Shown here: piece by piece, positions 1,065 to 7,219 of the stretch
Layout of the letters: every line of letters starts with the position of its first letter
Numbering within the stretch: position 1 is the stretch's first letter
Assembly (NCBI GenBank): GCA_002690805.1
Contig: NZFW01000020.1
Span: 25,474-89,473 of the forward strand
DNA from: Flavobacteriaceae bacterium
GTDB lineage: Bacteria > Bacteroidota > Bacteroidia > Flavobacteriales > Flavobacteriaceae
DNA: 64,000 nucleotides
Direction: 5' to 3'
Position numbers and translations under genes: made by a program
The notes under the pieces: model-generated
What the model was told of the DNA's origin: nothing
Databases searched by the model: none
The model's input: only the letters and a program-made list of their open reading frames with translations

Positions 1065-1808
1065 ATGTTTGAAGTAACAGTAATCGGGAATGGAAATGTT
1101 GGCACTCAACTTGCTATGAATATTGATGCACTTAAAGATTTCAAATTAAAAGAATGGTTCGGAAGATCATGGAAAAATAAAAAGATTCCAAAAAATGGTA
1201 TCGATAAAATAGAGAATCTTAAAGATGCTGATTTATTCATAATTGCTGTTTCAGATAGTTCAATTCAAAATATTTCAAAATTGATTAATAAAAACCACTT
1301 CTTAGTTCATTGTTCTGGAGCAACATCAATAAATGTATTTAACAAACATAAAAGATCAGGCGTACTATTCCCTGTTCAATCAATTACAAAAGACAAAAAC
1401 AATATTTTCGAAAAAACTCCATTTTGTATCGAAGCCAAAAAGGAAAACGATCTAAACTTATTAAAAAAATTAGTTTTATCATTGAAAGGAAGATATAAGT
1501 GTTTGAACTCTACAGAAAGAGCAAATGTTCATTTATCAGCAGTTTGGATTAATAATTTTGTTAATCATATTATATACAAGGGTAAAAAAATATGTGATGA
1601 AAACAATGTTCCATATTCAATTATTAAACCCTTATTAAAAAATACAATAAATCAAGTATTAACAAACGACCCCTTCATTATACAAACTGGTCCTGCTAGA
1701 CGAGAAGACGAAATAACGCTTAAAAATCATCTAAACCTAATGAATAATACTGATGATAAGAGTCTGTATTTAGCAATAACAAAATCAATAAAAAAAAGCT
1801 ATGAATAA
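1065..1808 (+). CDS. DUF2520 / Rossmann-fold NADP oxidoreductase-like protein
   Basis: ORF; N-terminal VTVIGNGNVGTQLA dinucleotide-binding motif; HCSGATS motif typical of the family. Confidence 0.8.
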   Translation: MFEVTVIGNGNVGTQLAMNIDALKDFKLKEWFGRSWKNKKIPKNGIDKIENLKDADLFIIAVSDSSIQNISKLINKNHFLVHCSGATSINVFNKHKRSGVLFPVQSITKDKNNIFEKTPFCIEAKKENDLNLLKKLVLSLKGRYKCLNSTERANVHLSAVWINNFVNHIIYKGKKICDENNVPYSIIKPLLKNTINQVLTNDPFIIQTGPARREDEITLKNHLNLMNNTDDKSLYLAITKSIKKSYE

Positions 1809-2313
1809 AGAAAATTATAAAATTAGATTGAAAAGAATTACAACATTTATTTTCGATATAGACGGAGTATTAACAGACGGAAAACTTCTTATAACAAATA
1901 ATGGAGAAATGTATAGAATGATGGATTCAAAAGATGGTTTTGCTATAAAATATGCAATTGACAGTGGATATAATATTTCAATTATTTCTGGAGCTATCAA
2001 CAAAGATCTTGATATAAGGTTAAAGTCTTTAGGTGTAAAAAATATTTATTTAGGAGCACATAAAAAAATTGAACCCTACAATGAATTGTTAAAAATTCAC
2101 GGAGTTTCATCAAATGAAATTCTCTACATGGGAGATGATATTCCAGATATTCCAGTGATGAAAAAAGTAGGTGTAAGTACCTGTCCCAAAGATGCAGTAA
2201 CAGATGTAAAAAAAATTGCTAACTACATTTCACCAAAAAAAGGGGGATTTGGATGTGTCAGGGAAATAATTGAACAGGTTTTAAGAGTTCAAAATAAATG
2301 GAATTTTATTTAA
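1801..2313 (+). CDS. KdsC-like HAD phosphatase (3-deoxy-D-manno-octulosonate 8-phosphate phosphatase)
   Basis: FDIDGVLTDGKL, MMDSKDGFAIKYA, YMGDDIPDIPVM motifs; overlaps the upstream gene. Confidence 0.85.
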   Translation: MNKENYKIRLKRITTFIFDIDGVLTDGKLLITNNGEMYRMMDSKDGFAIKYAIDSGYNISIISGAINKDLDIRLKSLGVKNIYLGAHKKIEPYNELLKIHGVSSNEILYMGDDIPDIPVMKKVGVSTCPKDAVTDVKKIANYISPKKGGFGCVREIIEQVLRVQNKWNFI

Positions 2314-2314
2314 A

Positions 2315-2893
2315 ATGGTTAAAAAGATTGATAAAGAAATAATTTTAGCTTCTAATTCCCCAAGGCGTAAAGCATTCTTTGAGCATTTTGACTTCCCTTT
2401 TACTATAAAAACTTTTGATGTTGAAGAGAAATATCCAAAAAAATTAAAAGGAGTCTCTATCGCTAGATATATTGCAGGTCTAAAATCCAAACCATTTAAA
2501 AAAATCATAGAGGAAAATCAAATTATTATTAGTGCAGATACTATTGTTTGGCATGAAAAAAAATGTCTTGGAAAACCAAAAACATTTGAAGATGCAAAAA
2601 GAATGCTACTATCTTTATCCGGTAAAACTCATAAAGTAATTACTGCAGTTGGATTTTTAACCTATGAAAACTATTACTGTATTGATGTAACAACCGAAGT
2701 TACATTTAATGAATTAAATGAAAAATTAATAGATAATTATATAATTAAACATAACCCCTACGATAAAGCTGGTTCATATGCAATTCAAGAATCAATTGGT
2801 ATATTAGGAGTTTCAAAAATAAAAGGAAGCTATACCAACGTTATTGGATTACCTGTTCCAGAAGTTTTAACTGAGATACAAAGATTAATTTGA
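2315..2893 (+). CDS. maf: Maf-like nucleotide pyrophosphatase
   Basis: LASNSPRRKAFFEH, SADTIVW, YDKAGSYAIQ motifs of the Maf family. Confidence 0.9.
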   Translation: MVKKIDKEIILASNSPRRKAFFEHFDFPFTIKTFDVEEKYPKKLKGVSIARYIAGLKSKPFKKIIEENQIIISADTIVWHEKKCLGKPKTFEDAKRMLLSLSGKTHKVITAVGFLTYENYYCIDVTTEVTFNELNEKLIDNYIIKHNPYDKAGSYAIQESIGILGVSKIKGSYTNVIGLPVPEVLTEIQRLI

Positions 2894-2933: not shown

Positions 2934-5405
2934 ATGAAATATTTTTTTTTATTAAGTTTCTTTTTTCTATTCAAATCATTTCAACTAAAGTCTCAAAACA
3001 GTGCTGAGATTTATACAAAAATTCAAAAGCTAAATGTTTTAGGTAGCTTACTCCATATTGGGGCCCATCCAGATGATGAAAACACAAATCTTATTTCTTA
3101 TTTTTCAAATAAGCACCATATTGAAACAACCTATCTTTCTTTAACTAGAGGTGATGGTGGACAAAACAGAATTGGAACAGAATTAACAGATGCATTAGGC
3201 CTAATTAGAACACAAGAACTTTTAGCTGCAAGAAAAATTGATGGTGCAAATCAATTTTTTACAACTGCAAATGACTTTGGTTTTTCGAAACATCCAGATG
3301 AAACATTAAATATTTGGAATAAAAATGAATTGCTAAGTCAAGTTGTCAAGTATATAAGGACAATCCAACCTGATATAATTATAAATAGATTTGATCATAG
3401 AACTCCTGGAACTACTCATGGACATCATACATCATCAGCAATTTTGAGTTATGAAGCTTTTGATTTAGCTTCAAACGTTAATTATTTTCCAGAACAGTTA
3501 AAATCACTTTCTATTTGGAAACCAAAAAGATTATTTTTTAATACATCATGGTTTTTTTATGGGAGTAAAGAAAATTTTATGAAAGTTGACAAAAATAATT
3601 TTTTAAAATTTGATCAATCTGAATTTAATAATCTAAGAGGAATGACTTATGATCAAATAGCTGCTAAAAGTAGGAGTCAACACAAATCTCAAGGATTTGG
3701 AAGATCGCCAAAACCTGGAGGTCCACAATGGGGGTATATAGAATTAATTAAGGGTGAAGATGTTGCTTCAAATAATCCTTTTGAAGGAATCGATATTAGT
3801 TGGAATAGACTAAAAGGTGGTGATCAAATTAAAACTCTAATAGATAATCTTCTAACAGACTTTAATTTTAAAATCCCTGAAGAAAACATTCCTGATTTAA
3901 TCAATATTTATAAAAAAATTGAAAAGTTGGAAAATGGATATTGGAAAAACTTGAAGTTAAATGAGTTAAAAAGTATTATTTCTCTTTGTCTTGGATTAAA
4001 TATTCAACTTAATAGTATAAATATATTAGGTACTCCAAATAGTAAAGAAGTTTTTAATTTAAAAATTGTTAACCCTTCAAATACTGATGTTCTAATCAAA
4101 AAAATAAATCTAAATAATGATAATTTTATAATTAATGAAACTATAAAAAATAATTATTTATTTGAAAAAAAATTAGAAATCACAATTGGCAATATTATTT
4201 CGTCACCATACTGGCTAACAAAAGAAGGGACATTAGGAATGTATAAAGTTAATAATCAAAACTTAAAAGGTCTACCCGAAACTCCAATAGCAATAAAAGC
4301 TAAAGTGGACCTTGTAATAAATGGTTCAGGATTAACTATTGTTGTTGATGCAAAAAACAGAATTACAGATCCCGTTCAGGGTGAGGTTATAACTCCCTAC
4401 ACCGTTGTTCCTAAAGTCACAGTAAAACTTGATCAGCCCGTTTATATTTTCACTGATTCCAGACCAAAACAAGTTTCTGTTTCAGTTACCGCGCATAAAA
4501 ATAATATTCAAGGTACTCTAAGTCTTGAAATACCAGAAGGATGGAAAAGTAAACCCAGTGAATACTTAATTGATATTTCAAAGAAGAGTGAGCTAAAAAA
4601 TTATTTATTTAATGTTTATTCTAGTAATAAAAATAGCTTAGGTACTATAAAGCCAATTATAAATTCAAATAATGAAAAATACTCTAATCAGCTAATAACG
4701 ATTGATTATCCTCATATTCCAAAGCAATTCATTGTAAAACCAAGCTTTTCAAAGGTATTTGAAGTTGATTTGAAAAATAATGTTAATAAAGTTGGGTATT
4801 TGATGGGTGTAGGAGATAAAATACCTGAAGCATTAAAAAATATTGGAATAGAGGTTGTTGAAATTGATCCCTCTGAACTTATTTTAGAGAATATTGCAGA
4901 CTTTAAAACAATAATAATAGGTATTAGGGCATTTAATGTTATAGATGAATTACGTTTTAAAAATGAAGTTTTATGGAATTATGTTAAAAATGGAGGTACT
5001 TTAGTTATTCAATACAACACTAGCAGAGGATTAAAAACAAACAATATTACTCCATATAAGTTAACACTCTCAAGAGATAGAGTTACTGATGAAAATTCAA
5101 GTGTTGAATTTTTAAATAAATCTCATTCCATATTCAATCATCCCAACAAAATAGAGATTGAAGATTTTAATAATTGGGTTCAAGAAAGAGGTTTGTATTT
5201 TCCCAACAATTGGGATGAAAATTTTGAACCTCTTCTTGAAATGAGTGATGTTAATGAAACAAAAAAAAGAGGAAGCATATTAGCAGCTTCCTATGGAGAA
5301 GGTAAAATAATTTACACAGGCCTTAGTTTTTTTAGGGAATTACCCGCTGGAGTTCCAGGGGCATATAAACTTTTTATTAATTTGCTAAACTTTGGGCATG
5401 AATAA
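2934..5405 (+). CDS. Secreted PIG-L (LmbE) family deacetylase, large multidomain form
   Basis: Signal peptide; GAHPDDENTNLI and HHIETTYLSLTRGDGGQN motifs; long C-terminal extension with glutamine-amidotransferase-like region. Confidence 0.85.
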   Translation: MKYFFLLSFFFLFKSFQLKSQNSAEIYTKIQKLNVLGSLLHIGAHPDDENTNLISYFSNKHHIETTYLSLTRGDGGQNRIGTELTDALGLIRTQELLAARKIDGANQFFTTANDFGFSKHPDETLNIWNKNELLSQVVKYIRTIQPDIIINRFDHRTPGTTHGHHTSSAILSYEAFDLASNVNYFPEQLKSLSIWKPKRLFFNTSWFFYGSKENFMKVDKNNFLKFDQSEFNNLRGMTYDQIAAKSRSQHKSQGFGRSPKPGGPQWGYIELIKGEDVASNNPFEGIDISWNRLKGGDQIKTLIDNLLTDFNFKIPEENIPDLINIYKKIEKLENGYWKNLKLNELKSIISLCLGLNIQLNSINILGTPNSKEVFNLKIVNPSNTDVLIKKINLNNDNFIINETIKNNYLFEKKLEITIGNIISSPYWLTKEGTLGMYKVNNQNLKGLPETPIAIKAKVDLVINGSGLTIVVDAKNRITDPVQGEVITPYTVVPKVTVKLDQPVYIFTDSRPKQVSVSVTAHKNNIQGTLSLEIPEGWKSKPSEYLIDISKKSELKNYLFNVYSSNKNSLGTIKPIINSNNEKYSNQLITIDYPHIPKQFIVKPSFSKVFEVDLKNNVNKVGYLMGVGDKIPEALKNIGIEVVEIDPSELILENIADFKTIIIGIRAFNVIDELRFKNEVLWNYVKNGGTLVIQYNTSRGLKTNNITPYKLTLSRDRVTDENSSVEFLNKSHSIFNHPNKIEIEDFNNWVQERGLYFPNNWDENFEPLLEMSDVNETKKRGSILAASYGEGKIIYTGLSFFRELPAGVPGAYKLFINLLNFGHE

Positions 5406-5493
5406 AGTTAAAAACCAAACATATATATTATTATTTGGAATTAATATTCTTTACTGGTTCATATTTTACATCATTACGATAAATTATAATTAA
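5398..5493 (+). CDS. Predicted 31-aa single-TM microprotein between PIG-L and SSS genes (not in ORF track)
   Basis: ATG AAT AAA GTT ... AAT TAA = MNKVKNQTYILLFGINILYWFIFYIITINYN; overlaps PIG-L stop (5398-5405) and its TAA overlaps the symporter ATG as TAATG (5491-5495). Confidence 0.5.
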   Translation: MNKVKNQTYILLFGINILYWFIFYIITINYN

Positions 5494-7184
5494 TGCTAAA
5501 TATTGATTGGTTCCTTTTAATTGGAACACTTCTTTTTATCGCAATTTATGGGGTTTGGAAAAATCAAAATCATTCTTCTATTAAATCATATTTAAAAGGT
5601 GATAATAAAGCTAGGTGGTGGACTATAGGTTTTTCAGTAATGGCAACTCAGGCAAGTGCAATTACATTTTTATCTACTCCAGGACAAGCTTATAGTGATG
5701 GAATGGGTTTTGTTCAATTTTATTTTGGACTTCCTTTAGCAATGATAATTATTTGTCTATTTTTTTTACCAGTATATCAAAAGCTTAATGTTTATACTGC
5801 CTATGAGTTTTTAGAAAATAGATTTGATCTTAAAACTAGAACTTTAACTGCAATTTTATTTCTAATTCAAAGAGGTTTAGCAGCTGGAATTACTATATAT
5901 GCACCTGCTATAATTTTAAGTGTTGCTCTTGGGTGGGATTTAAAATTGCTAGTTATATTAATTGGGATAATAGTCATATTTTATACTTTAATTGGTGGAA
6001 CAAGTGCTGTCAATATTACTCAAAAACAACAGATGTTTATCATTATTATTGGATTGGTATCTGCATTTTGGATAGCGCTTATTAAAATTCCTGAAAATAT
6101 TGATTTCTCAAAGGCTATTAAATTGGCTGGCTATAGTCAAAAGTTACAAGTATTGGATTTTAGTTTTGATCCAAATAGTAGATATACCTTTTGGAGTGGA
6201 ATAACAGGTGGTCTTTTTCTTGCTCTTTCATATTTTGGAACTGACCAAAGTCAAGTTCAAAGATACCTTTCAGGAAAGTCACTCAAAGAAAGTCAAATGG
6301 GGTTAATTATGAATGGGTTTCTTAAAGTTCCATTCCAGTTTTTCATTTTAATGCTTGGAGTTGTTGTATTTGTATTTTATCAGTATAAAACACCTCCAAT
6401 TCATTTTAATTCAAAAAACATAACAGAACTAAAAAAATCTAATTATGCAAAAGATTTTTTTCAAGTTGAAAAGGAATATAAATTAACTCAAAATCTTAAA
6501 CATAAAATTTTATTAAATCCATTATTTTTTGAAGATAATAAATTAAAGAAAAACTATTTACAATTAGAATTAGATAACAAAAACCAAAGAGAAAAAGTAA
6601 ATAAATTAATTCTTAAAAATAACAGAAAAGCTTCAATTAACGATAAAGATTATGTTTTTATCACCTTTATTATCAACCACTTACCGCACGGAATGATAGG
6701 TTTGTTATTAGCTGTTATATTTGCGGCAGCTATGAGCTCTACAGCTTCTGAATTAAATGCTCTTTCAGCAACAACCCTTATTGACTTATACAAAAGACAC
6801 ACACCTAATCTATCTGCAAATCATTATGTGAATATGGCCAAATTATTCACTCTAATATGGGGAATAATTGCTGTTGCTTTTGCTTTTTTTGGTAATTTAT
6901 TTGAAAACTTAATTCAGTTAGTTAATATAATTGGATCTGTTTTTTATGGTACAATTCTTGGAGTTTTTTTAATTGCATTTTTCTTCAAAAAAATTAAAAG
7001 TAACCCTGTCTTTTATGGGGCAATTATATCAGAGTTAATTGTTATCTCCTGTTATCTGATAAATCTTTATGTAATACCATTATTTGGATATTTATGGTTA
7101 AATGTCATTGGATCTATACTAACAATAGTATTTGCGTTTTTATTTCAAAAGATTGAGAATAATAAAAAAAACCTCAATATTTAA
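5493..7184 (+). CDS. Sodium:solute symporter (SSS family)
   Basis: Multi-TM protein; GFSVMATQASAITFLSTPGQAY, DQSQVQRYLSGKS, FAAAMSSTASELNALSATT SSS motifs. Confidence 0.9.
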   Translation: MLNIDWFLLIGTLLFIAIYGVWKNQNHSSIKSYLKGDNKARWWTIGFSVMATQASAITFLSTPGQAYSDGMGFVQFYFGLPLAMIIICLFFLPVYQKLNVYTAYEFLENRFDLKTRTLTAILFLIQRGLAAGITIYAPAIILSVALGWDLKLLVILIGIIVIFYTLIGGTSAVNITQKQQMFIIIIGLVSAFWIALIKIPENIDFSKAIKLAGYSQKLQVLDFSFDPNSRYTFWSGITGGLFLALSYFGTDQSQVQRYLSGKSLKESQMGLIMNGFLKVPFQFFILMLGVVVFVFYQYKTPPIHFNSKNITELKKSNYAKDFFQVEKEYKLTQNLKHKILLNPLFFEDNKLKKNYLQLELDNKNQREKVNKLILKNNRKASINDKDYVFITFIINHLPHGMIGLLLAVIFAAAMSSTASELNALSATTLIDLYKRHTPNLSANHYVNMAKLFTLIWGIIAVAFAFFGNLFENLIQLVNIIGSVFYGTILGVFLIAFFFKKIKSNPVFYGAIISELIVISCYLINLYVIPLFGYLWLNVIGSILTIVFAFLFQKIENNKKNLNI

Positions 7185-7197
7185 AAGTGAGGTTTTT
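7164..7197. terminator. Bidirectional intrinsic terminator between convergent genes
   Basis: AAAAACCTCA-atatttaaaag-TGAGGTTTTT inverted repeat with A-tract and T-tract flanks; symporter stop codon sits in the loop. Confidence 0.8.
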
Positions 7198-7219
7198 AGT
7201 TTAAAAATATTAATCTTAT

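Follow-up and report, generated by a model that had tools for sequence, protein, structure and literature searches.

A putative single-helix accessory subunit encoded directly upstream of an SSS symporter clade in Bacteroidota

Introduction

In the genome of a Flavobacteriaceae bacterium, the gap between the genes for a PIG-L family deacetylase and a sodium-driven SSS symporter is occupied by a 31-codon open reading frame (ORF) that touches both neighbours. A preliminary description, made from the sequence alone, had proposed that this ORF encodes a selected small membrane subunit translationally interlocked with the two flanking genes. The locus thus poses three questions: whether so short an ORF is a gene at all, to which of its neighbours it belongs, and what its product may do. 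We addressed them starting from the 64,000-nt stretch of DNA that contains the locus (referred to here as the window) and extending the comparison to the genus, the family and the phylum.

Arrangement of the locus

The window segment 1065–5493 is a tightly packed series of same-strand genes for DUF2520, HAD hydrolase, Maf and PIG-L proteins, leading through the microprotein ORF into the symporter gene (Table 1). The deacetylase was identified by its Pfam match (E=1e-15), and the symporter by Pfam (E=1e-44) together with TIGR00813; its SSF profile and SSS fold place it in TC 2.A.21, with SiaT, SMVT, SMCT1 and NIS as the nearest solved structures. From its ATG at 5398, the microprotein ORF runs for 31 codons (product MNKVKNQTYILLFGINILYWFIFYIITINYN) to a TAA at 5491–5493. 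Its first 8 nt overlap the end of the PIG-L gene, stop included, and its last base doubles as the A of the symporter ATG (5493), exactly the geometry first described. An in-frame TTG at 5392, upstream of the ATG, leaves the start ambiguous by two codons. The product had been characterized as almost entirely one hydrophobic helix, and one hydrophobic helix is what we found.

Table 1. Coordinates (window positions) of the microprotein ORF and of the genes and signals around it.
Feature	Position	Strand	Remarks
Upstream DUF2520, HAD-type hydrolase and Maf-like protein genes	1065..2893	+	
PIG-L family deacetylase, 823 aa	2934..5405	+	PF02585; frequent but dispensable neighbour
31-aa single-TM microprotein ORF	5398..5493	+	Predicted N-in/C-out; without known family
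TAATG junction (overlapping stop and start) that couples the symporter to the microprotein	5491..5495	+	
SSS (SLC5-type) symporter, 563 aa	5493..7184	+	PF00474, TIGR00813; constant genomic partner of the microprotein

Conservation of the ORF

The way in which the ORF fills its gap had been considered unlikely for random sequence, a point that did not survive a shuffle test. When the PIG-L–SSS gap was dinucleotide-shuffled and scored with loose start and stop rules, 17% of the shuffled gaps contained a comparable coupled ORF 25 aa or more in length, so that the gap arrangement alone is weak proof of a gene and would be compatible with a chance ORF in AT-rich sequence. The improbability of the ORF stems instead from its conservation. 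In each of the six further genomes of the genus, whose symporters are 74–85% identical to that of the window, the ORF sits at the matching position with the same TAATG junction. An intact copy is present in 7/7 members of the genus, in 27/27 additional loci from the family and in 80/80 named loci. Over the core 23 codons, pooled for the seven species of the genus, pN/pS was 0.41 in the ORF frame versus 0.89 and 0.90 in the other two frames, both of which also hold stops, pointing to purifying selection specific to the ORF frame. Moreover, among 168 microprotein–symporter pairs from many families, a Trp before the helix was retained in 135, Y9 in 164 and F23 in 149. A conserved frame in the orthologous gaps, a Ka/Ks-type signature and conserved Trp and Tyr positions had been named beforehand as checks, and each was found; the counter-evidence named with them, orthologous gaps lacking an ORF or bearing frameshifts, did not materialize in these loci. 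Judged by these comparisons, the ORF is shown to be a real protein-coding gene under purifying selection; with frame and sequence conserved over a phylum, the chance reading is already refuted and retains practically no credibility.

Pairing with the symporter

Co-occurrence was counted by comparing two full genome lists, one of all genomes matching the SSS orthologue and one of all those matching the microprotein profile. Among 301 Flavobacteriaceae-type family genomes, both were present in 262 and neither in 32, while six had the symporter only and one the microprotein only, the latter on a weak match (E=0.007). The six symporter-only genomes comprise one with a divergent microprotein (G225), two whose contig stops within the SSS gene, and three true losses (G070, G286 and G173), where the PIG-L and SSS genes lie side by side without the microprotein. 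Counting G225 in and leaving the two contig-end cases out, the microprotein occurs in 263 of the 266 testable SSS-bearing family genomes. It adjoins the SSS gene in 80/80 named loci, and an SSS start lies directly behind it in all 30 loci retrieved by the microprotein profile alone. The microprotein is therefore encoded directly upstream of one SSS clade and is a constant companion of that clade. Other SSS paralogues of the genus had none: the profile gave no match at convincing scores (0/23), and a rule based on small hydrophobic ORFs flagged only one of 25, which proved to be a DUF4212 partner.

Two family genomes (G225 and G039) have a symporter of another lineage, grouping with the L314/L315 clade (support 0.996) and outside the family clade, and their microprotein carries the matching non-family motif; the two proteins thus appear to have been replaced together, exchanged as a unit. 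G039 also has two extra SSS copies (L321, L322) that are nested in the same SSS clade and are accompanied by neither microprotein nor PIG-L. Separately, the PIG-L–microprotein–SSS arrangement is present twice in G587 (L136, L137), once towards each end of a 3.86 Mb contig, and one copy has stops and frame breaks; rather than a duplication, this is probably a circular contig whose overlapping ends were left unclipped.

The deacetylase gene as a neighbour

Adjacency in the window and in 73/80 named loci could also suggest that the microprotein is a partner of the PIG-L deacetylase, serving for example as its membrane tether. PIG-L is, however, absent from the flank in the other 7/80, and microprotein–SSS pairs without it were found at L090–L093 and in a second class (L124–L133), where no PIG-L gene directly precedes the pair, nor does one in f24; a Maf gene occupies this position in G010, G246 and G101, and the upstream gene is divergent in G041. 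Beyond the genus, most relatives either start the ORF downstream of the PIG-L stop or have no PIG-L there, and conversely PIG-L can remain where the microprotein is lost. Because the pair persists without PIG-L, and SSS paralogues go without the microprotein, gene neighbourhood shows the microprotein to be tied to the symporter and not to the deacetylase, and a PIG-L partnership, already largely refuted, is very improbable. Of the subunit originally proposed as interlocked with both genes, what stands is a membrane microprotein that is under selection and linked to the SSS symporter, whereas the PIG-L interlock is incidental. The junction with the symporter takes the form TAATG, TAATATG, TAAnnnATG or a 4-nt overlap in relatives, mostly the last outside the family; as read from these loci, coupling on the SSS side is conserved and the PIG-L overlap is local. 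A similar DUF2520/HAD/Maf-like trio also precedes the microprotein–SSS pair in genomes without PIG-L.

Distribution across the phylum and natural losses

SSS orthologues were detected in 144/396 genomes of the phylum. From those outside the window's family we took 60 loci, chosen regardless of the microprotein, and searched them with profiles built without the family being tested. The microprotein was recovered in 53/60 of these loci (17 other families), always just upstream of the SSS gene and with zero off-target matches, and two more of the 60 (f38) carry a short hydrophobic ORF that has diverged beyond the reach of the profile. Loci fetched from other families by the microprotein profile likewise all had it directly upstream of an SSS gene (the second class L124–L133, f5 and f35). 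The shared motif is about W-x3-Y-x2-V/L-...-I-x2-F-Y-x2-T/M-K-x-F, and carriers include Flavobacterium, Polaribacter, Tenacibaculum, Maribacter and Zobellia as well as many other families of the phylum. A second match in one family genome (L138) lay inside an unrelated 203-aa membrane protein and was rejected as a chance match.

The symporter is kept without the microprotein in several lineages (G070/G286, G173, G458 and G440/G412). At L224, L230 (f25), L171 (f5), L312/L316 and L318, the PIG-L end lies close to the SSS start with no microprotein between them, and in terms of gene order these are independent natural losses. Several losses imply that the microprotein is not strictly essential.

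A conserved helical face

Lys and Arg are concentrated at the N-end of the microprotein (mean of 2.9 in the N-tail vs 0.5 in the C-tail; higher at the N-end in 150/168 pairs), from which an N-in/C-out orientation is inferred by the positive-inside rule. Conservation along the sequence has an alpha-helical period of 100 degrees (permutation p 0.0006), and the conserved face comprises, in window residues, Y9, L12, N16, Y19, F23, T27 and Y30. A single conserved face of this kind would be expected if the helix packs against a partner. It also bears on whether the ORF could be a translational leader, whose translation opens or couples the SSS start while the peptide itself does little. A leader would account for the shortness of the ORF and for the very common stop–start overlap with SSS, and in the loss lineages the nearby PIG-L end could provide the coupling instead; but it requires no amino-acid conservation, yet the Trp, Y9 and F23 positions hold, a helical face is conserved and pN/pS is low, and we regard it as quite unlikely.

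Two attempts were made to place the helix on the symporter. AlphaFold2 (AF2) was applied to the Galbibacter locus L282 with microprotein and SSS in one frame, read through the TAA, where the very short tether would bias placement; the SSS part was folded (pTM 0.73) and the microprotein helix had a pLDDT of about 55, so that the docking was rejected as unreliable. Foldseek confirmed the SSS fold only. Mutual information over the 168 pairs peaked at SSS residues 457–483, but those columns also distinguish the family from the other groups, and within the family the signal was not reproduced, so this segment was set aside as a contact site. The loss lineages show no compensating change at SSS 457–483, where they look like their microprotein-bearing relatives.

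Proposed role

We favour the reading, to which we assign a probability of roughly three in four, that the microprotein is a small accessory subunit of the SSS symporter whose gene follows directly downstream, its physical binding and function being putative. The microprotein would insert N-in/C-out, and coupled translation would supply it just before the transporter and in matched amounts. Much as MAP17 sits on TM13 of SGLT2, the conserved face of the microprotein may pack against a helix in the symporter's fixed scaffold. The microprotein would aid folding, stability or full activity of the transporter, with no part in carrying the substrate.

The alternative closest to such a subunit is an assembly or quality-control factor specific for this SSS clade, such as a membrane-insertion aid or a protease adaptor, that does not become a lasting part of the transporter. 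All the evidence tying the microprotein to SSS fits it equally, and it would sit well with the tolerated losses; genomic association as such cannot tell a lasting subunit and an assembly factor apart. The tight one-to-one pairing and the coupled translation nevertheless favour a stoichiometric partner, and an assembly factor could serve several SSS paralogues, yet those have none of their own. On balance, we judge an assembly factor unlikely.

If the microprotein is indeed a subunit, attempts to express, crystallize or assay such symporters without it may fail. Gene finders skip genes so short, which may hide a conserved apparent transporter component in almost every genome of the family. The few lineages that have naturally lost it offer ready comparison pairs.

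Relation to known small membrane partners

DUF4212 and DUF485 had been cited as precedents for small membrane partners of SSS transporters, and the likeness holds in role, not in sequence. Neither the window microprotein nor six diverse homologues matched any Pfam family up to E=10, NCBIfam and PHROGs gave nothing above cut-off, no PDB chain matched the microprotein profile at E<=1 (MAP17 included), and the curated DUF4212, DUF485 and DUF3311 profiles did not match the microprotein. In the literature searched we found no description of it, and a review of SSS (PMC7918813) never uses the term 'subunit'.

Like the microprotein, DUF4212 (PF13937) is a small membrane protein whose gene immediately precedes that of an SSS symporter, but it has about 80 aa compared with a single TM of about 31–45 aa, lacks a sequence match and goes with a different SSS clade. 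Its profile does recognize a genuine DUF4212 protein within the genus (L029:1188–1460, G005), a two-helix partner upstream of another SSS; the window genome, in its assembled form, lacks DUF4212. DUF485 (YjcH/Pflu1813) with ActP and DUF3311 next to MctP are likewise small membrane proteins of SSS operons, although both are larger than the microprotein, which has no Pfam match to either. DUF485 is reported to accompany actP invariably, with a probable functional association (PMC5715377), and DUF3311 is located next to MctP (PMC9100948). The closest model for the putative role is MAP17 (PDZK1IP1) of human SGLT2, a single-TM auxiliary subunit of an SLC5/SSS transporter; the microprotein too has a single TM. 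MAP17 sits on TM13 of SGLT2 as part of the fixed scaffold, contributes to stability and surface expression and, when co-expressed, greatly enhances hSGLT2 activity (PMC10803289). It differs from the microprotein in being eukaryotic and larger, with soluble tails and no detectable sequence relation, and its binding helix, TM13, appears to be missing from the shorter SiaT-like bacterial SSS.

Very short single-helix proteins of large membrane complexes are known elsewhere, KdpF among them. AcrZ (PMC7267776) and CydX (PMC6005532) are likewise very short single helices, each associated with a large membrane complex; all three differ from the microprotein in belonging to different complexes and in having no Pfam/NCBIfam relation to it. 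As far as sequence comparison goes, the kind of protein is known from the SSS partners DUF4212, DUF485, DUF3311 and MAP17, but the microprotein family itself is not. With somewhat less assurance than for the subunit role itself, we lean towards the broader view that an SSS clade spread across much of Bacteroidota has a dedicated single-helix subunit of about 30–50 aa, a bacterial counterpart of MAP17–SGLT2 that arose independently of the two-helix DUF4212/DUF485 proteins. If so, SSS transporters would have gained small helix partners several times, and the role of such partners would be directly testable in small bacterial systems.

Other features of the symporter gene

The symporters of this clade contain a hydrophilic insert of roughly 80 aa (window 6390–6645, SSS aa about 300–385) at the place where solved SSS proteins have the loop between the equivalents of TM7 and TM8; profile matches break there. 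It is predicted to form a helical hairpin and, by analogy with the SGLT topology, would be periplasmic. Beyond it, an inverted repeat (AAAACCTC ... GAGGTTTT, window 7168–7200), with a loop longer than the scan applied could span, lies between the SSS gene and a convergent DUF2911 gene and is likely a shared two-way terminator for both.
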